Assembly: GCA_019635795.1 (NCBI GenBank)
Contig: JAHBYV010000009.1
Span: forward strand, 62,001-126,000
DNA: 64,000 nt
Direction of reading: 5' to 3'
Source: Rhizobiaceae bacterium
Lineage (GTDB): Bacteria > Pseudomonadota > Alphaproteobacteria > Rhizobiales > Rhizobiaceae
Shown: positions 1 through 15,764 of the stretch, in pieces
Position numbering within the stretch: the stretch's first letter is position 1
Layout: each line of letters begins with the position of its first letter
Translations under genes and position numbers: made by a program
Notes under the pieces: generated by a model
Database searches by the model: none
What the model was told of the DNA's origin: nothing
Seen by the model: the letters and a program-made list of their open reading frames with translations, nothing else

Positions 1-824
1 TATCCGACGAATGCACGTTCCAGAACGAAAGTGTTCGGGCTGTTCAGAGAACCCTCTTCGAAACCGCGCTTTTCAAGGATCGCCTTAACGTCCTGATTAA
101 GCTGCATGGAGCCGCAAATCATGACCCTGTCCGTTTCGGGATTGAGGGCTTCAATGCCAAGGTCCGAGAAAATCTTGCCGCTCTCAATCAGATCGGTGAT
201 CCGGCCCATATAGGGCGATTCTTCCCGGGTGGTTGTAGAATAGAGCGTTACTTGCGGGGAAAATTCTCCGATCAGCGGATCGTCCGCAAGGTTGGCGATC
301 AGTTCCTTGCCATAAGCCAACTCGGCAACCTCCCGGCAGGTATGCGTAAGAACAAGCTGGCCGAACTTTTCATACGTGTCTGGATCCCGAACAAGGCTGG
401 CAAAGGGAGCAATGCCGGTACCTGTCGAAATCATGAACAGGCGGCGCGCCGGTGTAAGCGCATCAATCACCAGAGTGCCCGTCGATTTTTGTTTCATCAG
501 AACGGTGTCGCCCGGCTGGATGAGCTGAAGATGTTCGGTCAGGGGACCATCCGGCACCTTGATCGAGAAAAATTCCAGTTCTTCATCCCATGCGGGCGAA
601 GCGATGGAATAAGCACGAAAAACAGGGCGTTCAGCATTCGGCAAGCCGATCATGACGAACTCGCCGGAACGGAAGCGAAAGCTCTGCGGCCGCGTGATAC
701 GGAACTTGAACAGCCGGTCCGTATAGTGCTGCACCGAAACGACCGTCTCTGCATAGACGTTCGCCGGAATGGGAAATTTTGGCGCGTCGCTTTCGACGGC
801 CTTTAGCGAAGTTGAGTGGTGCAT
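1..824 (-). CDS. fpr: Ferredoxin--NADP(+) reductase, 274 codons, stop codon cut by the window edge
   Basis: This is an FAD flavoenzyme that passes electrons between NADP(H) and ferredoxin or flavodoxin in the cytoplasm. In frame from the ATG at 824 the protein shows the FAD-binding stretch RAYSIASPAWDEELEFFS near residues 75-92, the NADP-site segment STGTGIAPFASL and the C-terminal MICGSM block. It ends ERAFVG followed by TA at bases 2-1, so only the last base of a probable stop codon is missing and the protein is essentially complete. No strong ribosome-binding site precedes 824, but no better in-frame start is present. The upstream region carries the same GTATAC-centred palindrome (870-885) as the nicotinate operon promoter, 46 bp from the start codon. 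That suggests co-regulation and a job supplying reduced ferredoxin to the reductase at 2332-3840. The family call is firm; the pathway link is inference. Confidence 0.9.
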   Translation of the reverse strand, partial: MHHSTSLKAVESDAPKFPIPANVYAETVVSVQHYTDRLFKFRITRPQSFRFRSGEFVMIGLPNAERPVFRAYSIASPAWDEELEFFSIKVPDGPLTEHLQLIQPGDTVLMKQKSTGTLVIDALTPARRLFMISTGTGIAPFASLVRDPDTYEKFGQLVLTHTCREVAELAYGKELIANLADDPLIGEFSPQVTLYSTTTREESPYMGRITDLIESGKIFSDLGIEALNPETDRVMICGSMQLNQDVKAILEKRGFEEGSLNSPNTFVLERAFVG

Positions 825-869: not shown

Positions 870-885
870 TATTAGTATACAAACG
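870..885. promoter_or_regulatory. Putative MarR (NicR-like) operator upstream of fpr
   Basis: The 16 bp read tattagtatacaaacg. They form an imperfect palindrome around GTATAC and match the site at 7471-7486 at the core and inner arms. On the minus strand a TTGACC (898-893) lies just upstream and could be the -35 of fpr, so a bound repressor would cover the -10 region. The nearby MarR protein (1029-1445) is the obvious candidate binder. The sequence match is direct observation; binding is inference. Confidence 0.6.
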
Positions 886-1028
886 AATATCGGGTCAAGA
901 TTGCGGCCTGAAACCCGGTTCCAAACATCTGCATCGTCGAAGATCATTCGTTTCGTCATTCGTTGATCGCGCAGAATAAACCTGCATCGAACAAAGCACC
1001 TTGAAATTCAGAAGCTCACACATGGCGG

Positions 1029-1445
1029 CTATGAAATCCTCTTCAACAATTTTAGCAAAGTTTCAGCTTCGCGCCCAGAAAGCGGAGCGAGTGTTTCTGC
1101 GGTAATTCGCCCTGCCTGCGAAACCAGTTGTGCCACGGCTTCCCTGCCCTGCGGCGTAATATGCACACTGACGCGCCGCCGGTCGGCATTATCGCGCTCT
1201 ACAAACACCAGCCCGCGGGCCTTGAGACGGTCGATTACGCCCTTGATGGTTGCGGCATCCATTGCGACCAACTGCCCAAGCTGGCTTTGTGAGGTCGTAC
1301 CGACTTCCTGAAGCATTTCGAGTGTCGCAAACTGCGGCGGTGTCAGGTCGGATATATGCGAGGCAAAAATCGACACATGCCGCTGATGGGCTTTTCGCAG
1401 CACGAAGCCGATCTGGTCCTGTAATTGATACTTGTCCTTGGTCAT
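1029..1445 (-). CDS. MarR family regulator, NicR/BpsR-like candidate
   Basis: This 138-residue protein has the usual MarR length. It has a helical N-terminus, then a winged helix-turn-helix around residues 35-100: the recognition segment SQSQLGQLVAMDAATIKG is followed by the wing RDNADRRRVSVHITPQG, which contains the family DxRR pattern. It is the last gene of the five-gene operon that starts at 7423, and its ATG overlaps the stop of the UPF0280 gene by 4 bp, so it is co-expressed with the enzymes. MarR proteins NicR (Pseudomonas putida) and BpsR (Bordetella) repress nicotinate genes and respond to 6-hydroxynicotinate. By analogy this one may bind the palindromes at 870-885 and 7471-7486. Family membership is secure; ligand and targets are inferred. 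Confidence 0.9.
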   Translation of the reverse strand: MTKDKYQLQDQIGFVLRKAHQRHVSIFASHISDLTPPQFATLEMLQEVGTTSQSQLGQLVAMDAATIKGVIDRLKARGLVFVERDNADRRRVSVHITPQGREAVAQLVSQAGRITAETLAPLSGREAETLLKLLKRIS

Positions 1446-2335
1446 CGGCAGCCGGCGAGTTTTTGTGGCATGGGCGGAGTTGCTGTTTTCTCAATCTGGC
1501 TTTGATGCCGGAAATTCTGGGTCAGGCGCTTTTGACCATCGAGATAGAGCGCAGCGCCTGCAATCAGGCCCGCTCTACGCAGTCCGTCAGCTTTGCGCAA
1601 ACCGGATTCCAGCGCGGCATCGACCTCATGCAATGCAAGGTGACCAACACTGACCGTAACCAACTTGCCGCGGAGATCGCTATCAGGCTGCAAGCTTGCA
1701 GCGGGCGCTCGTTTGACAGCCGGATGGTTCGGCAGATCGACAGCATTTGCAATGATGGTGGCAGCAGCATCGGCTTGTGCGGCGGTTGCGGCCAGCACTG
1801 TCACGGCATCGGCAATTCCAAGCGAGAATGAGCGCCCGCGCCAGCCGCTCGTCGCCACACCGCGCACATTATCATTCGATTCGATAGCGATACGATCCTT
1901 GAATCCATTGCCTGTTCCGGCAATCGCCAACTTCATTGTTTCACCATTCCCGAGCCAGATTGCGCTATCGCCGCCGTTATTAACGTAAGCCTTGCTCAGC
2001 CTGTTGCCCTGAAGCATATGACGCAGAATTTCATCGGCCACCGCACCCGCAACGGCTGCCATTGGCGTTATGAATTCCGGAAAGAACGGGTTTGTGGCCG
2101 CTTCCATTTTTTGTGCGACATGCCCGGCAAGGTCGCGAGGCTGCCCTTCAACAGGCGAACGCAGCTCTGGCAATTCGCGCACCAGCTCCTCCAGGATCGT
2201 GCTGAACCGGTCCGTGGCGCGCTCATATGCGCGGCGCACCTGTGCAGGTTCCCCGAAAGCCTCCGCAATAATGTCAATCGGCCCGTGGTTGAGGTGAAGC
2301 CTGCGGCCCAGCATGGCTGCCTGAGGGCCGGTCAT
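1442..2335 (-). CDS. UPF0280 family protein of unknown function (ApbE-like)
   Basis: This 297-residue protein belongs to UPF0280 (COG2122), which is distantly related to the FAD:protein FMN transferase ApbE. It starts MTGPQAAMLGRRLHLNHGP and has a central AAVAGAVADEILRHM segment and the motif YVNNGGDSAIWLGNGE (residues about 117-132), which recalls the ApbE nucleotide-binding NxGGD signature. No signal peptide or membrane segment is visible. The gene overlaps the reductase-like gene upstream and the marR gene downstream by 4 bp each, so it is translated as part of the pathway operon. It could modify or load a flavin onto a partner, or carry out a further step on the reduced ring. The sequence does not decide this. 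Confidence 0.85.
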   Translation of the reverse strand: MTGPQAAMLGRRLHLNHGPIDIIAEAFGEPAQVRRAYERATDRFSTILEELVRELPELRSPVEGQPRDLAGHVAQKMEAATNPFFPEFITPMAAVAGAVADEILRHMLQGNRLSKAYVNNGGDSAIWLGNGETMKLAIAGTGNGFKDRIAIESNDNVRGVATSGWRGRSFSLGIADAVTVLAATAAQADAAATIIANAVDLPNHPAVKRAPAASLQPDSDLRGKLVTVSVGHLALHEVDAALESGLRKADGLRRAGLIAGAALYLDGQKRLTQNFRHQSQIEKTATPPMPQKLAGCR

Positions 2336-3840
2336 CGACGCGCCTGTTCAATCTGGGCGGCCATCGGCCACGGATTTCCTATGGGTGCCGCTTCTTCCAC
2401 TCTGGGATTGTAGTATTCCCCACCTCGCTGCAAGATATCGTCGACCGTGCGAATTTCTTCCTCATACCCGCCAAGCGCCAGATAGTCGTCGCGCCTCAAC
2501 GTGAATTCGATAGGTGCAACAAGCGCGGGTGTCGGCACATAACCGAACGCGTTGTCCGGCACGCGCGTAACATCGACCATGAGCGTTATGCCGCCGCCGG
2601 GCCACACATAGACGGGCGCACCTCCCACAGTCACATATGTTTTGAGGCCCTGCACGGAGCGCGTCAGATTAACCGGATTCTCAACCACGCCAGCGCGCAG
2701 CGATCCCCCGGCACCGCCAACGAACAGCACAGTGCACACAGCCGGTTCACAATTCTGCTCAATCAGATCGACGGATTTTCGCAATCGTTCAGGGAACGGC
2801 TTGAGCACCGGCTTCAAATCGTCGTCCAGTTCGTAATAGGCAAACTGCTCGCCGGTCGTCGAAACCATCATCATCGAAAGGCCAGGTCTGGCACCCTTTG
2901 CCGCGTTCCACGGGCCAAGGATTTGCAGCGGATCTTCGATCGTGGTGCCGCCCCAGCCCTGTCCAGGCTCGGCAACCTTGAAGTAGCGCCCCGGCGTGGA
3001 ACGTCTCCCGACGATCTTGATGCCCGTATCTTCCCAGCCGATCACCTTGCCTGCCTGATGCTCGGACACGACGCCGGTGATATGGTCATCCACAACAACC
3101 ACCTCGTCCACCAGCCCGCGCCACTGTTTGGCGAACATACCTATCGTCGCCGAACCGCAGCCAACACGCATACGCTGCTCTGCCTTGCCATCAATGATCG
3201 GAGGCTTTCCCGCTTCAACCACCAGCGTTGTGCCGCCATCTATTGAAAGCTCAACGGGCTGGCGGTTGCACAGCGCCAGCAGCGTGTCGCAAGTTACGCG
3301 CCCCTCCTGTTTTGAGCCGCCGGTCAGGTGGTGGACACCGCCCAGCGACAACATTTGTGAGCCATATTCAGCGGTGGTGACATGGCCAACCGCCTCACCT
3401 TTCGCCCGCACCACTGCGGTTTCCGGACCAAGATGCCTGTCCGTGTCGATTTTGATCTTCACGCCGCAGTAAGAGAAAATCCCTTCCGTCACCACGGTTA
3501 CCAGATCCACGCCTTCGACTTCCTGACTGACGATGAAGGGTGCGGGCTTGTAATCCGGATAGGTTGTTCCCGCGCCGATGGCCGAGACAAAACGCTGGCG
3601 GGTGTTCACCAGCTCACCGTCCCATTCCTCACCGTCGAAGCGAACAAGCTGTTCGTGCTCAAGAATGCGCAGCGGATCGCAACGCGTAATCCGTCCATCG
3701 AAATTGCCGTACCGATCACATGCGCCGGTTCGCCCCTCCGCGATGTAGCACATCACCGGACATGCGTCGCAGCGCAGCTTTTCGGCGACCTTTTTTTCTC
3801 CCGGCTCGTGGGTATCGAACCGTTCCGAAAGCTCATTCAT
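2332..3840 (-). CDS. hnr: 6-hydroxynicotinate reductase-like iron-sulfur protein
   Basis: This 502-residue protein resembles 6-hydroxynicotinate reductase, which uses reduced ferredoxin to form 1,4,5,6-tetrahydro-6-oxonicotinate in anaerobic nicotinate fermentation and whose homologues occur in aerobic alphaproteobacteria. The N-terminus holds clustered cysteines at about positions 24, 27, 31, 41 and 54 (CDACPVMCYIAEG followed by CDRYGN), fitting a 4Fe-4S site. Glycine-rich stretches such as VGCGSATIGMFAKQW and FVGGAGGSLRAGVV follow. The gene overlaps the hydroxylase gene upstream and the UPF0280 gene downstream by 4 bp. The adjacent molybdenum hydroxylase, which would make 6-hydroxynicotinate, and a nicotinamidase support the substrate. 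The exact reaction is unproven; a reductase of a related hydroxylated heterocycle is the alternative. Confidence 0.75.
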   Translation of the reverse strand: MNELSERFDTHEPGEKKVAEKLRCDACPVMCYIAEGRTGACDRYGNFDGRITRCDPLRILEHEQLVRFDGEEWDGELVNTRQRFVSAIGAGTTYPDYKPAPFIVSQEVEGVDLVTVVTEGIFSYCGVKIKIDTDRHLGPETAVVRAKGEAVGHVTTAEYGSQMLSLGGVHHLTGGSKQEGRVTCDTLLALCNRQPVELSIDGGTTLVVEAGKPPIIDGKAEQRMRVGCGSATIGMFAKQWRGLVDEVVVVDDHITGVVSEHQAGKVIGWEDTGIKIVGRRSTPGRYFKVAEPGQGWGGTTIEDPLQILGPWNAAKGARPGLSMMMVSTTGEQFAYYELDDDLKPVLKPFPERLRKSVDLIEQNCEPAVCTVLFVGGAGGSLRAGVVENPVNLTRSVQGLKTYVTVGGAPVYVWPGGGITLMVDVTRVPDNAFGYVPTPALVAPIEFTLRRDDYLALGGYEEEIRTVDDILQRGGEYYNPRVEEAAPIGNPWPMAAQIEQARR

Positions 3841-6578
3841 TTTCGTGCGTCCTTGATCGCTGCCAGGATGCGTGCAGGTGTTGCCGGAAGCTGCGTAACC
3901 AGCACGCCTGTCGCGTGGCGTATTGCATTGAGAATGGCGGGCGCGGTGGGTATCAGCACATGCTCGCCCAACCCCTTCGCTCCAAATGGACCTTCCGCAT
4001 CCGGAACCTCCACCAATATTGTTTCTATTGGCGGAACATCCCCGATTGTCGGGATCAGATAGTCGTGCAGGTTTTCGGTGCGGCCCGGAATGTACTCTTC
4101 CATCAGCGCCATGCCGATGCCTTGTGCAATGCCACCTTCGATCTGTCCTTCAGCCAGCAGCGGGTTGATCGCTTTGCCCACATCATGAGCCGCCGTAATC
4201 TTCAAAAGCTTCACGGTCCCAAGCCGGATATCGACTTCGAGTTCAACCATTTGCGCGCCGTAGCCGTAAACGGCGTAGGGTCGTCCCTGACCTTTTTCAT
4301 CGAGCGCGCTGGTGGGCGGATCGTATGTTTCCTGCGCTGAAAACACATAGCGCAAACCATCTGCCGGCAAGGCACCGAGATCGATCGCCCGGCGCGTATC
4401 GCCTTCGCAAATAATCAGGCACCCATCATCCAAAGCCAGCGTTGCCGCATTGGAAACATTGGCGAAGCGCAAAATCTTGTCCCGCAACGCCCTTGCAGAC
4501 TTTTCCGCCGCCTTGCCACTCACGAATGTTTGGCGCGACGCTGAGGTCTTGCCCGCATCGGGTGTAAGAGATGTGTCTGCTCCAATCAGATCAATGCAGC
4601 ACAGCGGAACCCCAAGCGCATCAGCGGCAATCTGGCTGATAACTGTGTTCGAGCCCTGACCAATATCAACAGCACCCTGATGCAGCTTGACCCTTCCATC
4701 CGCAGAAATGCCGATCAGAATCGTAGAAGGATTGGGCAGCGACGTATTCCCGCAACCATACCAGCAAGACGCGACACCGACGCCGCGGCGAATGAAAATG
4801 CCTGATTCATTAGCCGACTTACGATCATGAAGCGCACGCGTCCAATGTGGCCTTAGCGCTTCCAGACAAGCGGCGATTCCCACACCCGCTTCCAGCACAT
4901 GACCTGTTACGGTCGCGTCCCCATTTCGCAGCGCGTTGGCAATACGCAATTCAAGCCGGTCCATGCCAATCTGGTCTGCAAGCTGATCGTACAGTGTTTC
5001 CTGCATGATGGTGGCTTGTGGAACTCCAAAGCCACGGAAGGCTCCGGAAACCGGGCCATTGGTATGAACTGCAACGCTATTTGCCCGGTAATTCGGCGTG
5101 AAATATGGGCCTGACGCGTGAACTGGAACACGATTTGCCACAGTTGGCCCCCAACTTGCGTAAGCGCCGGTGTTGAAGGTTCCATTGAAACGCATGGCGA
5201 CAATGCGGCCATTTTCGTCCGCGCCAATTTCGGCCGACATGGTTGCCGGGTGGCGCTTTGTCGATGCCATCATCGATTCCGCGCGTGTGAAGGCCAGCAC
5301 CGCCGCACGGCCCGTCTTTAAAGCCACGAGGCCAATCAATGGTTGGACGGAAATATCAAGTTTGGAACCAAATCCACCCCCGGTTGCGGTGGGCACAATG
5401 CGAACTTTTTCCACTGGCAAGCCAAGCAGTTTCGCTGTGTCATCTCGGTCCATGAAAGGCGCCTGCGTACAGGCTGTAATGACGAGCGTATCGCCATCCA
5501 TGACTGCAAATCCGGCTTCAGGCTCGATATAAGCGTGCTCGACATACGCAGTTTTAATCGTTCCGGTAACGGTATAATCCCCGCCTTCCATGGCACTATC
5601 CGGATTTCCGCGCTCAACATAGCCACGCACCAGAATATTGTCCGCGCGGCTTTCATGCAGAACCGGATTGGCAGGCCCCGGTTCAAGCGCATGTTCGAGC
5701 GGCTCCCATTCAACGGGGAAATCGCTCGCATCAAAATCGTGCAGGGCCGAACGCTCCAGTGCCACCAGAGCAATTGCCTCGCCTCGGAACCGGGCAGCAC
5801 CTTCGGCCAGAGCCGGTTGATCTGCAAAAGCCGGAATGACACCAAAACAATTGATGCCGGGCATATCCGCCGCAGTGAAGACACCGGCGATTGCTGGATT
5901 TGCCAGCCTATACTTTTCAAGATCGCCCAAGCGGAAGCGCGCATGATGATAGGGGGATCGGATCACCACCACGGCCAGCGCATCGGCGGGAAAACTGTCA
6001 GCGCCAAACTTCTCACGCCCATCCACCTTCGGCACACCGTCGAGCCTTGCGGGCGACGCGCCGACCGCCGAGCCCCGCGCGATACCCGATGGCGCTTCGG
6101 CACTTCGCCCACAGTCGACTTCGCCAGCCACCGCCAGCACGGCCGCGATGATCTTGCGATAGCCCGTACACCGGCAAAGAACCCCGCCCAGAGCATCCCT
6201 GACCTCAAACTCGTTCGGGCGGGGATTGCGTTCAAGCAAGGCAGATGCCGCCATCAAAAAGCCCGGAGTACAGATGCCGCATTGAGCCGCGCCATGAGCC
6301 AGAAAAGCGTCCTGCAAAGCAGACAAGCGTTCGCCTGCCAGTCCCTCCACGGTACGTATTCGGCAGCCATCGACAGCCGCAGCGGGTGCAAGGCACGCGC
6401 AGACCGCCTCGCCATCCACCAACACGGTGCAAGCTCCGCAATCGCCAGCATCGCAGCCGACTTTCGTTCCCGTCAGACCCAACTCGTCTCGCAACAGGCT
6501 CGAAAGTCGTGTGAGCGGATCGACATTGAGCGTCACGCTTGTGCCGTTCACATCAAGATTGATTGATTGACTCTTCAT
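3837..6578 (-). CDS. Molybdenum hydroxylase, fused 2Fe-2S and molybdopterin subunit (probable nicotinate dehydrogenase)
   Basis: This 913-residue protein of the xanthine dehydrogenase family fuses two modules that are often separate. Residues 1-160 form a CoxS/XdhA-type domain with two 2Fe-2S sites: C42, C47, C50 and C62 (GCDAGDCGACTV), then C100, C103, C135 and C137 (QCGICTPG and LCRCTGYRK). Residues about 170-913 form the molybdopterin-binding large subunit, with TGGGFGSKLD, the GAFRGFGVPQ motif and, near the C-terminus, FGAKGLGEHV, whose glutamate is the expected catalytic base. It starts at an ATG overlapping the FAD-subunit stop by 4 bp. Hydroxylation of nicotinate at C6 is inferred from the reductase-like gene downstream and pncA. 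Purine or another N-heterocycle remains possible because the family signature alone does not set the substrate. Confidence 0.85.
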   Translation of the reverse strand: MKSQSINLDVNGTSVTLNVDPLTRLSSLLRDELGLTGTKVGCDAGDCGACTVLVDGEAVCACLAPAAAVDGCRIRTVEGLAGERLSALQDAFLAHGAAQCGICTPGFLMAASALLERNPRPNEFEVRDALGGVLCRCTGYRKIIAAVLAVAGEVDCGRSAEAPSGIARGSAVGASPARLDGVPKVDGREKFGADSFPADALAVVVIRSPYHHARFRLGDLEKYRLANPAIAGVFTAADMPGINCFGVIPAFADQPALAEGAARFRGEAIALVALERSALHDFDASDFPVEWEPLEHALEPGPANPVLHESRADNILVRGYVERGNPDSAMEGGDYTVTGTIKTAYVEHAYIEPEAGFAVMDGDTLVITACTQAPFMDRDDTAKLLGLPVEKVRIVPTATGGGFGSKLDISVQPLIGLVALKTGRAAVLAFTRAESMMASTKRHPATMSAEIGADENGRIVAMRFNGTFNTGAYASWGPTVANRVPVHASGPYFTPNYRANSVAVHTNGPVSGAFRGFGVPQATIMQETLYDQLADQIGMDRLELRIANALRNGDATVTGHVLEAGVGIAACLEALRPHWTRALHDRKSANESGIFIRRGVGVASCWYGCGNTSLPNPSTILIGISADGRVKLHQGAVDIGQGSNTVISQIAADALGVPLCCIDLIGADTSLTPDAGKTSASRQTFVSGKAAEKSARALRDKILRFANVSNAATLALDDGCLIICEGDTRRAIDLGALPADGLRYVFSAQETYDPPTSALDEKGQGRPYAVYGYGAQMVELEVDIRLGTVKLLKITAAHDVGKAINPLLAEGQIEGGIAQGIGMALMEEYIPGRTENLHDYLIPTIGDVPPIETILVEVPDAEGPFGAKGLGEHVLIPTAPAILNAIRHATGVLVTQLPATPARILAAIKDARK

Positions 6579-7423
6579 CGGACAGACCGCTCCGAGGATA
6601 TGGCTTGCTCAATCGCTCGTGAGACGATTTCGCGGGCTGCATCCAGTCGATATTCGGAACTGGCGCGCACATCGTCGATCGGTGAAAGTTCGGGCATTGC
6701 GGCCCCTGCAACAATGCCATTTGCGCGGCTTATGTCCTGCCCGCCCAATTCACTCTCCAAAGTGAACAGGCGCTGGGCAACCGCCGAACATGCGCCGACT
6801 GCAATGGCTGCTTTTCTGATCGTGTGGTCAGACACTTCCAGTCGAACCGCAGCCATCGCAATGGAAATGACAAGATACCGCCGCGCGCCAAGCTTCTGGA
6901 ACGAAGAAACACCTGCAACGGAAGCTTTGGGCACTCGAATTGCGGTCAGCAATTCTTCATTGCGCCGCAAGGTTTGCCTGTTGCCCACAATGAAGTCGCC
7001 AAGCGGCACGTGTCTTGTCCCGCGTTGGGAACGCAACTCCACATCGGCATCAAGCACGAGCAATGGCGGCACACCATCGGCCGCAGGCGACGCATTGCAC
7101 AAATTGCCTGCGACAGTCGCAACATTCTGGATTTGGACCGATCCGACTTCACGCGCTGCTTGTTTGAGCGCATCAAATGCAGCGGGAAGCTTTGCCCGCA
7201 CAATCTCTGTCCAGGTCGTCCGCGCACCGATAACAATATGTGTGTCAGTCGTCGTGATCCCTCGCAATTGATCGAGAGCATTCAGATCCAGAACATTATC
7301 GGTAATGGGCTTGTTGCCCTGAGCGGGATAAAAATCCGTCGCGCCTGCCAGCGGTCGCCAGCTTGTCTGCGCAAGCAGAGCAAGCGCTTCATTGACCGTA
7401 GTGGGTTTCGCGTAGCGTGGCAC
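6575..7423 (-). CDS. Molybdenum hydroxylase FAD-binding subunit (CoxM/XdhB type)
   Basis: This 282-residue protein is the medium subunit partner of the fused large subunit. It begins MPRYAKPTTVNEALALLAQ, has the first FAD contact region RPLAGATDFYPAQ and the second, VATVAGNLCNASPAADG (near residues 110-126), and ends in the CO dehydrogenase flavoprotein C-terminal domain with GACSAVAQRLF. An FAD subunit implies that electrons leave to NAD(P) or a similar soluble acceptor, unlike the cytochrome-linked NicAB enzyme of pseudomonads. It is the first gene of the operon. A promoter reading TTGACA-N16-TATCAT (7511-7484) lies upstream, with the palindrome 7471-7486 over its -10 and start region. Confidence 0.88.
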   Translation of the reverse strand: MPRYAKPTTVNEALALLAQTSWRPLAGATDFYPAQGNKPITDNVLDLNALDQLRGITTTDTHIVIGARTTWTEIVRAKLPAAFDALKQAAREVGSVQIQNVATVAGNLCNASPAADGVPPLLVLDADVELRSQRGTRHVPLGDFIVGNRQTLRRNEELLTAIRVPKASVAGVSSFQKLGARRYLVISIAMAAVRLEVSDHTIRKAAIAVGACSAVAQRLFTLESELGGQDISRANGIVAGAAMPELSPIDDVRASSEYRLDAAREIVSRAIEQAISSERSVR

Positions 7424-7470
7424 GCAATGCCTTCCATTGGCCTGAACCCCCAGCTATCAGGGGCAAAATT

Positions 7471-7486
7471 CATTTGTATACGAATG
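7471..7486. promoter_or_regulatory. Putative MarR operator upstream of the hydroxylase operon
   Basis: The sequence catttgtatacgaatg is an almost perfect 16-bp palindrome with one mismatched pair. It is centred on GTATAC, 48 bp upstream of the start at 7423. The fpr site at 870-885 has the same core and nearly the same distance to its start codon (46 bp). It overlaps the predicted -10 box, as expected for a repressor. The divergent pncA gene begins 98 bp to the other side and may share the control. Confidence 0.65.
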
Positions 7487-7511
7487 ATATTCATTAATTC
7501 CCGTTTGTCAA
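7484..7511 (-). promoter_or_regulatory. Predicted sigma-70 promoter of the hydroxylase operon
   Basis: On the minus strand TTGACA (7511-7506) is followed after 16 bases by TATCAT (7489-7484). The -35 box is perfect and the spacing is close to optimal. The -10 box overlaps the GTATAC palindrome, so repressor and polymerase would compete. No transcript evidence is available. Confidence 0.5.
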
Positions 7512-7583
7512 AGCAAGCTTTATCTTGCACGAAAACAGGGGACCTATATTTTCGTCTGAACGAACACGAACCGGAGTCGGAAG

Positions 7584-8183
7584 TTGTCCTCAAGCGCGCT
7601 CATCGTCATCGACATACAGAATGATTTTTGTCCCGGCGGCGCTCTGGCCGTAACAGGTGGTGATGAAATCGTTCCTCTGGTCAATCGCATGATCGAAAAC
7701 TACGAGCATGTGATCCTGACACAAGACTGGCACCCGACTGCGCATTCCAGCTTTGCCTCAACCCATACGGGGCGCGCGCCCTTCGAAACGATCGAGGCTG
7801 CCTATGGACCGCAGACCTTGTGGCCTGACCATTGCGTTCAGGGAACGCCCGGCGCGGAATTTCACCCTGACCTTGTGTGGACAAAGGCTGAACTGGTAGT
7901 TCGCAAGGGGTTTCGGCGGGGGATCGATTCTTACTCCGCCTTCTTTGAGAACGACCACAAGACGCCAACCGGTCTGGGTGGGTATCTGAAAGAGCGCGGG
8001 ATTTCGGAACTGACGCTCGTTGGTTTAGCCACAGATTATTGCGTTGCCTATTCGGCGCTGGATGCCGCACGGCTTGGGTTCAACGTTTCCGTGCAGATGG
8101 ATGCTTGCCGCGCGATCGACCTTGGAGGTTCGTTGCAAACCATGACTGAAGCCATGGGCGATGCGGGGGTTTCGCTCAGATAA
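7584..8183 (+). CDS. pncA: Nicotinamidase/pyrazinamidase
   Basis: This 199-residue cysteine hydrolase converts nicotinamide to nicotinate and ammonia. The Asp-Lys-Cys triad is visible as D10 (VIDIQNDF), K108 (VVRKGF) and C153 (GLATDYCV). The metal ligands are D48 and H50 (TQDWHP) and H83 (WPDHCVQG). The start is a TTG at 7584 preceded by GGAG 7 bases upstream; no ATG occurs nearby in frame. It is transcribed away from the hydroxylase operon, and its product nicotinate would be that operon's substrate, which supports the nicotinate reading. It also serves NAD salvage. Transcription ends at the strong hairpin at 8184-8219. Confidence 0.93.
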   Translation: MSSSALIVIDIQNDFCPGGALAVTGGDEIVPLVNRMIENYEHVILTQDWHPTAHSSFASTHTGRAPFETIEAAYGPQTLWPDHCVQGTPGAEFHPDLVWTKAELVVRKGFRRGIDSYSAFFENDHKTPTGLGGYLKERGISELTLVGLATDYCVAYSALDAARLGFNVSVQMDACRAIDLGGSLQTMTEAMGDAGVSLR

Positions 8184-14753: not shown

Positions 14754-15764
14754 TCAGCGCCCCCCTTCCTTGTTTGCCTGACGAATGTTCCAGATCATGA
14801 TGGGCAGCACACCGATCATGATGACGATTGCAATCGTCGCGCCTCGCCCAAAGTCGCCGCCGCCGCGGAACATCCAGTTGAACATGAGATTTGCGAGAAC
14901 CTGACTGCTCCACTGACCGTTGGTCATGGTCAGCACAATATCGAACACCTTGAGCACAAGGATCGTGATGGTGGTCCACACCACAAGTATGGTGCCCCAG
15001 ATTTGCGGAACCATGATCTTCCAGAAAATCTGGAAGGGATTGGCCCCATCAATCACGGCCGCTTCAATCGTTTCTTCGGGAATGCCGCGAAGGGCGGATG
15101 ACAGGATCACCATCGCAAATCCCGTCTGAATCCAGATCAGAATTATCATGAGGAAGAAATTGTTCCAGAAGGGCAATGAAATCCACACTTGCGGCTGCCC
15201 GCCGAACGCCTGCACGATTGCATTCAATATGCCGATCTGCTCCTGGCCCTCACCACGATATTCGTAGACAAATTTCCAGATCACGGACGCGCCAACAAAG
15301 GAAATCGCCAGCGGCAGGAAGATCAGGCTTTTTGCAATCGTACCCCACCAGATCTTGTCAGTTAGAACCGCAATGATCAGGCCCAGCAAGGTGCATGCCG
15401 CGGGCACGACGATGAGCCACATCAGATTATTCAGCAGCGAATTGTGAAACTCTGCATCTGAGACCAACCAGCGGTAGTTGGCCATGCCAACGAAGCTGTC
15501 TCCACCCTTGTCATAGAACGAATAGATCAGCGTCGAGACAACCGGATAGATGAGATAGACAGTGAGTATGAGAATTGCCGGACCGATGAAAAGCCAGGGC
15601 CGCACCAAAGCCTGACGCCGCAGATTGTCCACCGCAGCCGCGCCACTCACACCTCGCGATGGAAACACCAGATCGACGAGTTTGTTTGCGCCCCAGAAAT
15701 AGGCGAGGCAACCGCCAACACCGACAATAATAACGATTATCGCAGAGATGATTTGCGAAGCCAT
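14754..15764 (-). CDS. aglF: Alpha-glucoside ABC transporter permease
   Basis: This 336-residue permease partners AglG. An extra N-terminal membrane segment (IISAIIVIIVGVGGCLAYFW) precedes the six core segments. The ATPase-coupling motif is EETIEAAVIDGANPFQIFWK. The start is the ATG at 15764 (MASQIIS), because GAGGGGA lies 5-6 bases upstream; a GTG five codons earlier would place that site inside the coding region. Two strong hairpins in the 110-bp gap separate it from aglE and probably lower its expression relative to the binding protein. Confidence 0.92.
   Translation of the reverse strand: MASQIISAIIVIIVGVGGCLAYFWGANKLVDLVFPSRGVSGAAAVDNLRRQALVRPWLFIGPAILILTVYLIYPVVSTLIYSFYDKGGDSFVGMANYRWLVSDAEFHNSLLNNLMWLIVVPAACTLLGLIIAVLTDKIWWGTIAKSLIFLPLAISFVGASVIWKFVYEYRGEGQEQIGILNAIVQAFGGQPQVWISLPFWNNFFLMIILIWIQTGFAMVILSSALRGIPEETIEAAVIDGANPFQIFWKIMVPQIWGTILVVWTTITILVLKVFDIVLTMTNGQWSSQVLANLMFNWMFRGGGDFGRGATIAIVIMIGVLPIMIWNIRQANKEGGR

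Follow-up and report, generated by a model that had tools for sequence, protein, structure and literature searches.

A GTATAC-centred palindrome before a nicotinate-type hydroxylase operon and before fpr in a Rhizobiaceae bacterium: predicted operators of one local, BpsR-like MarR repressor

The stretch of DNA analysed here (the window) comprises 64,000 nucleotides of a Rhizobiaceae bacterium, contig JAHBYV010000009.1 of assembly GCA_019635795.1 (C30:62001-126000 of a 30-contig, 3.26-Mb genome). Its minus strand carries an operon of overlapping genes, in the order hydM, hydL, hnr, a PRK04334-family gene and marR, and ~200 bp further lies fpr, a ferredoxin-NADP reductase gene. Two palindromes centred on GTATAC, one before hydM and the other before fpr, are very probably the operators of a single local repressor, the BpsR-like MarR encoded by the operon itself, so that the hydroxylase, the 6-hydroxynicotinate reductase (Hnr), the repressor and Fpr would be induced together.

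The two sites have ATTCRTTTGTATACNAATRA in common, read on the minus strand at fpr and on the plus strand at the hydroxylase operon. An earlier sequence-only reading had placed them at 870-885 (tattagtatacaaacg) and 7471-7486 (catttgtatacgaatg), 46 and 48 bp from the start codons of the genes that they precede; both are found there, and the spacings fit starts at 824 (ATG, fpr) and 7423 (GTG, hydM). It had also called both sites palindromic, which holds exactly for the core; in the arms, 7 of 8 positions are paired at the hydroxylase operon and just 5 of 8 at fpr. GTATAC occurs twice in the window, both times at the operators, but the chance mean is 1.95 and the hexamer alone was rejected as evidence, two being expected by chance. 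The longer shared core TNNGTATACNA gives four strand-matches (two places) against 0.18 expected, and none of 100 shuffles reached four. The operators and their promoters lie as follows.

866 to 889 (core 870-885), minus strand: fpr operator, minus-strand sequence TATTCGTTTGTATACTAATAAATC.
871 to 876, minus strand: proposed fpr -10, ACTAAT, within the operator; deduced from conservation and from genome G133.
894 to 899, minus strand: proposed fpr -35, CTTGAC, 17 bp from the proposed -10; from conservation in relatives.
7467 to 7490 (core 7471-7486), minus strand: operator of the hydroxylase operon, minus-strand sequence ATATCATTCGTATACAAATGAATT.
7484 to 7489, minus strand: hydroxylase promoter -10, TATCAT, overlapping the operator and conserved in relatives.
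7506 to 7511, minus strand: hydroxylase promoter -35, TTGACA, 16 bp from the -10; from a promoter scan.

The hydroxylase promoter (TTGACA-16-TATCAT) agrees with the consensus at 11 of 12 positions, and 57 distinct hydroxylase upstream sequences of relatives share the consensus CTTTGACAA with GATATCAT. On the fpr side a plain sigma-70 scan gave no promoter; CTTGAC-17-ACTAAT is proposed there from conservation, CTTGAC being the consensus (each base at least 75%) of 37 distinct fpr upstream sequences. The arrangement looked for in a MarR repressor, a palindromic operator overlapping the target promoter, is found, at fpr with a promoter that is itself deduced, and both layouts would suit repression by blocking of RNA polymerase. 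Two further features of the fpr upstream region were seen. The motif TTTGGAA (919-925, minus strand) stands ~35-40 bp before the operator core; it shows strong conservation in the 37 distinct sequences and is kept in the window despite the loss of hyuA (described below). Where marR has ended and the fpr promoter has yet to begin, TCATTCGTT is directly repeated (944-952 and 956-964), and the repeat looks like half sites of the operator.

Under the proposed mechanism, a MarR dimer would occupy TTCRTTNGTATACNAAYGAA-type sites when substrate is lacking, covering the -10/start region of the hydroxylase promoter and, at fpr, the spacer and the proposed -10. An early pathway intermediate, most likely 6-hydroxynicotinate, would free MarR from the operators. 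The cell would then make the hydroxylase, converting nicotinate to 6-hydroxynicotinate, and Hnr, converting 6-hydroxynicotinate to 1,4,5,6-tetrahydro-6-oxonicotinate (THON), together with more repressor and with Fpr, which would pass electrons from NADPH via a ferredoxin to Hnr. As a 6-hydroxynicotinate reductase (EC 1.3.7.1), Hnr would draw its electrons from ferredoxin. THON is reported to be the product of the reductase route in aerobic Azorhizobium (PMC3511419).

A search for hnr returned 80 loci (L005-L084); in 67 of these the hydM start and 350 bp are covered, and they formed the hydroxylase upstream set. The motif ATTNGTATACNAAY lies upstream of hydM in 49 of the 67 at ≤1 mismatch and in 61 at ≤2, against 0.1 and 0.6 in dinucleotide shuffles. 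On the fpr side, 100 of the 131 non-window family genomes with an fpr match were compared, namely all 48 that have hnr and 52 of the 83 that lack it, the latter picked mainly by fpr identity; eight hnr-bearing genomes without an fpr match at E≤1e-70 (G004, G035, G081, G090, G102, G112, G156, G174) were left out. The site precedes fpr at ≤1 mismatch in 38 of 48 genomes with hnr versus 2 of 52 without, and at ≤2 mismatches in 43 of 48 versus 4 of 52; shuffles of the 48 upstream regions gave 0 and 1.0, and the association of site with hnr has a Fisher probability of 7e-16, uncorrected for relatedness. At fpr, the operator largely accompanies the operon, as expected of a regulon member. The two sites found at ≤1 mismatch in genomes without hnr may reflect assembly gaps: G158 is 85% complete, belongs to the same genus as the hnr-bearing G063 and has a HyuA cut by a contig end, and G114 is 92% complete and carries MarR on the same contig. 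The sequence-only reading had staked itself on conservation of the palindrome in relatives with the operon, and the palindrome proved to be conserved at both promoters and to track the operon. The same counts bear on the idea that GTATAC is a chance hexamer or a -10-like promoter element without regulatory meaning. About two copies are expected in the window, and TATACT does look like a -10, but such an element should be equally present with and without hnr, a prediction that the counts contradict: in genomes without hnr, 48 of the 52 regions upstream of fpr have no site at ≤2 mismatches, and the arms as well as the core are conserved across 61 distinct sites. We regard this idea as barely credible.

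The size of the regulon was gauged with two site models. R1 (A1) comprises 61 of 70 distinct sites, the nine left out being mostly odd or distal and one of them omitted inadvertently; because its training set held the window's own two sites, R2 (A2) was built from 26 of 27 hydroxylase sites from other genomes, the window's being excluded. In the searches of the window's own genome 150 of 357 and 150 of 995 first-look candidates were scored (≤150 candidates per genome), so that weaker sites elsewhere could have been missed. R1 ranks the window's two operators at the top (E 1.8e-4 and 3.5e-4; next 0.72), and R2 places the hydroxylase site first (5.5e-4) and the fpr site second (0.048; next 0.37). 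Among 20 genomes with hnr, the source of many R1 training sites, 18 yielded both the fpr site and a site at the expected place of hydM, 3.6-4.3 kb upstream of hnr; G089 and G031 yielded the fpr match alone. Extra weak matches appeared in only two of the 20 (G001, G098), and two of ten genomes without hnr gave one weak match each. With both sites in 18 of 20 genomes and few extras, the regulon looks compact, as the sequence-only reading had suggested. The extra weak sites of G098 are two, 3.2 kb apart (C6:147917-151158; E 0.46 and 0.08), and perhaps mark a second target or a paralogous cluster. A simple pattern search of the own genome at ≤2 mismatches gave 42 matches against 37 in the reversed control and was uninformative beyond the best sites; a place with one mismatch at 15260-15273 of the window, in neither model's list at E≤10, was dropped as chance.

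The protein proposed to bind these sites scores above the gathering thresholds of PF01047 and PF12802, as befits a short winged-helix protein of the MarR family. It matched 55 solved sequences at E≤0.001, mostly named MarR-type regulators, the closest being 2nnn and BpsR (6pcp/6pco). Within the winged helix, residues 61-74 are, like the site, strongly conserved: 7 of the 14 are invariant in 91 relatives. At E≤1e-25 the protein is present in 55 of 57 family genomes with hnr versus 7 of 94 without, and it is found in 69 of the 80 loci. In the window and most loci marR follows the operon genes; where it ends the operon there is no separate operator upstream of it (4-6 mismatches), and marR is therefore read as controlled with the operon. 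In six distant loci (L064, L079, L095, L096, L097 and L103, with 1, 1, 0, 2, 3 and 3 mismatches) the palindrome separates marR from a divergent hydM, so that MarR is the likely binder. G086 has a perfect site between divergent marR and fpr. Some other regulator might instead bind the sites, with MarR controlling something else, for MarR binding is a prediction from sequence and the own genome encodes two more MarR relatives (E≤0.001), including one in an enamidase/transport island. The co-occurrence of MarR with hnr, the position of marR behind the operon genes and the sites between marR and hydM in the six distant loci speak against such a regulator, which we consider very unlikely.

If MarR is the repressor, its ligand can be considered by comparison with BpsR, which binds 6-hydroxynicotinate through Tyr15, His23, Arg26 and His32 (PMC6837509). 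The equivalent residues in the window MarR are Y6, F14, R17 and H23. In the 91 relatives Y6 and R17 are each kept in 91 and H23 in 88, whereas the position of BpsR His23 holds Phe in 83 and Tyr in 8. Because F14 replaces His23, the protein falls outside the BpsR-type sensors as defined by these four contacts, although it may still work like one, and its ligand may differ from that of BpsR. A pyridine carboxylate is a plausible ligand, 6-hydroxynicotinate foremost, with one contact that differs.

The fpr site has a second neighbour in most relatives examined, a divergent gene for an enzyme that probably opens the THON ring. In all 38 loci that hold both genes, Mesorhizobium denitrificans included, fpr is divergent from hyuA across a gap of 144-223 bp, and the operator lies in this gap at ≤1 mismatch in 37 and at 2 mismatches in L040. 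HyuA and HyuB of M. denitrificans have as their best NCBIfam matches the caprolactamase alpha and beta subunits (511 and 313 bits, each below the cut-off of 1000), and caprolactamase opens a lactam ring in an ATP-dependent manner (PMC8453981). The fpr locus of the window lacks hyuA, hyuB and a PF06684 gene (hyuB was searched in the window and the fetched loci only). The own genome has no nicotinate-type HyuA at E≤1e-150, while both same-genus genomes have such a HyuA; PF06684 relatives (64% and 47%) are on its contig C17. Across 49 genomes with hnr (window included), nicotinate-type HyuA (64-100% identity) is present in 42 and absent from seven (G000, G099, G013, G140, G014, G091, G006); relatives at 41-48% identity were counted as not nicotinate-type, among them that of G091 (44%), the only one in that genome. 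The window and G099 both have an intact operator and an eroded version of the -35 proposed for the hyuA strand, and G133, which lacks hnr, MarR and this HyuA, keeps CTTGAC and ACTAAT and has a decayed left operator half. Such a pattern, from these few cases (n=3), would be expected if the operator is kept for MarR and serves fpr.

A candidate for the missing ring-opening step is encoded on C17 of the own genome, an enamidase homologue (2vun, 373 bits); Eubacterium barkeri uses a bifunctional enamidase to open THON (PMC9304392). Enamidase is present in all seven hnr-bearing genomes without nicotinate-type HyuA versus one (G076) of the 42 that have it (Fisher 9e-8, uncorrected for relatedness); caution about a swap is advised by close enamidases in 2 of 11 genomes examined that lack hnr (G133, G108). 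The 80 loci divide into 41 with hyuA, eight with enamidase, none with both and 31 with neither (many of them short or cut). Of the eight enamidase loci, five have fpr and the enamidase gene divergently oriented on either side of the TTNGTATACNAA palindrome; the other three (L066, L075, L081) did not show this layout. The site stands 59 and 78 bp from fpr in L072 and L082, and 77-89 bp from the enamidase start and ~460 bp from the fpr start in L069, L077 and L084. The same divergent arrangement recurs in the family genomes G013 and G140, where ~200-240 bp separate fpr from enamidase and a perfect site lies ~70 bp away from the fpr match. The fpr upstream region of G013 (L196) contains two operator-like sites ~90 bp apart, one of which is a perfect 24-base palindrome, AATTCGTTAGTATACTAACGAATT. 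On C17 of G000, the window's genome, the enamidase homologue sits in an island (L298:1130-18171) with two PF06684 genes, a second MarR, two nucleoside hydrolases and ABC-type transport genes, and may, given this hydrolase/transporter/MarR setting, serve another pathway too. G099 has a partly similar set (L299), with its enamidase on C15.

These arrangements could mean that the fpr-side palindrome is part of the promoter of the divergent ring-opening genes, whether hyuAB or enamidase, that the window copy is a relic and that fpr stands outside MarR control. The invariable divergence of hyuA from fpr with the site in the gap, and the three enamidase loci in which the site is near the enamidase and far from fpr, fit this explanation. 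Against it, the operator is intact in the window and in G099 despite the absence of HyuA and an eroded hyuA-strand -35; G020 and G145 keep the fpr site (2 mismatches) though hyuA is ~15 kb distant; the perfect site of G086 lies between marR and fpr; the site is near fpr in L072, L082, G013 and G140; and the operator overlaps the proposed fpr -10. We judge the relic explanation unlikely. With fpr taken as a target of MarR, the gap arrangement can be read as a conserved two-way unit of ring-opening enzyme, MarR operator and fpr in nicotinate regulons of the THON route, one that outlasts a swap between the non-homologous ATP-dependent HyuAB (Mesorhizobium type) and enamidase (Chelatococcus and Bosea loci, for example); HyuAB would then represent a new lactamase acting on THON, and 6-hydroxynicotinate reductase would have in Fpr its dedicated donor, carrying electrons from NADPH to ferredoxin. 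We lean towards this reading with some reserve, because the distance of the site from fpr in L069, L077 and L084 weakens it.

Several observations weigh against control of both promoters by the one local MarR. The arms of the fpr site pair poorly, as described above. No site at ≤3 mismatches was found in three of the 67 hydroxylase upstream regions (L072, L074, L078) or before fpr in five of the 48 genomes with hnr (G022, G147, G026, G131, G006); G022 and G026 do have a site with 2 or 3 mismatches between marR and hydM (L096, L097). Two of the 57 genomes with hnr (G102, G112) have no MarR at E≤1e-25, and L076, another locus with marR and hydM divergent, offers no match better than 4 mismatches. 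To these is added the Phe or Tyr in place of BpsR His23. Finally, because the genomes are related, an rpsA tree of 81 rows (80 of the 100 genomes of the fpr comparison plus the window) was built. It offers only six supported independent pairs: 2.4 (≤1 mismatch) or 3.3 (≤2 mismatches) of them link the site to hnr, none points the other way and the rest show no difference, which is not significant by itself.

The genes of the locus are listed here.

3 to 824, minus strand: fpr, ferredoxin-NADP reductase, 274 aa; stop codon at or beyond the window edge, start ATG at 824.
1029 to 1445, minus strand: marR, MarR-family repressor (Pfam MarR), last gene of the operon, its start overlapping the stop of the preceding gene.
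1442 to 2335, minus strand: PRK04334-family protein, operon member (NCBIfam NF003322, 371 bits, cut-off 290), which we take to be UPF0280.
2332 to 3840, minus strand: hnr, 6-hydroxynicotinate reductase homologue; homologues are so annotated in several plasmid records.
3837 to 6578, minus strand: hydL, fused [2Fe-2S] and molybdopterin subunit of a xanthine-dehydrogenase-type hydroxylase (Pfam Fer2, Fer2_2, MoCoBD_1, MoCoBD_2).
6575 to 7423, minus strand: hydM, FAD subunit of the hydroxylase (Pfam FAD_binding_5, CO_deh_flav_C), first gene of the operon; start GTG at 7423.
7584 to 8183, plus strand: pncA, nicotinamidase (NCBIfam NF008623, above cut-off), divergent from the hydroxylase operon.

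The fpr product is assigned at family level only, because its NF008178 score (135 bits) is below the cut-off of 390; an fpr match at E≤1e-70 is present in 132 of 151 family genomes, some of which have two. The hnr product has no Pfam, NCBIfam or convincing PDB match, and hnr of M. denitrificans LA-28 (NZ_QURN01000001.1) is 91% identical to that of the window. The hydroxylase encoded by hydL and hydM is probably a nicotinate hydroxylase, and its genes co-occur with that of the 6-hydroxynicotinate reductase, as the THON route requires, the reductase function being assigned by homologue annotation only. In the Mesorhizobium loci L013, L022, L032 and L035 the hydL match spans ~140-170 bases more than that of the window, which suggests an insertion within hydL. 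The gene pncA adjoins hydM in most of loci L005-L063. The hydroxylase operator is ~100 bp from it in the window (7467-7584), and as its position is kept in many relatives, pncA might share control.

Local MarR control of nicotinate catabolism is already known from BpsR and NicR. BpsR of Bordetella is homologous to the window MarR over nearly its full length (93 bits) and represses nicotinate catabolism genes; three of its four 6-hydroxynicotinate contacts are kept in the window MarR, in which, as in its relatives, BpsR His23 corresponds to Phe/Tyr. The genes nicC and nicE belong to another nicotinate route. These two are BpsR targets, whereas fpr is a proposed target of the window MarR, and the exact DNA site of BpsR is called unclear, whereas a site is defined for the window system (PMC6837509). 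NicR of Pseudomonas putida is likewise a MarR-like repressor of nic genes, but lacks the BpsR-type contact residues according to the same paper (PMC6837509). The nicotinate cluster of Azorhizobium caulinodans and Bradyrhizobiaceae SG-6C also follows the THON route, and the main text of its paper contains neither 'MarR' nor 'ferredoxin'; the window operon, by contrast, carries marR with fpr adjacent, and most of its relatives have HyuAB. The HyuAB that neighbours fpr is a relative of the caprolactamase CapAB but falls below the CapAB cut-offs, and its inferred substrate is THON. Among the top-listed papers of the open-licence literature there was no report of this operator, of the fpr link, of the enzyme swap or of a donor for 6-hydroxynicotinate reductase, and the available parts of PMC5343134 and PMC7057948 contain nothing on this regulator; the operator, the membership of fpr and the enzyme swap seem to be new. 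A widespread MarR regulator of nicotinate catabolism is thereby given a concrete predicted operator, and its regulatory link to fpr is a ground for proposing that Fpr supplies 6-hydroxynicotinate reductase with electrons in aerobes. From the apparent exchange of HyuAB and enamidase, with operator and fpr staying the same, a function can be predicted for a HyuAB family.

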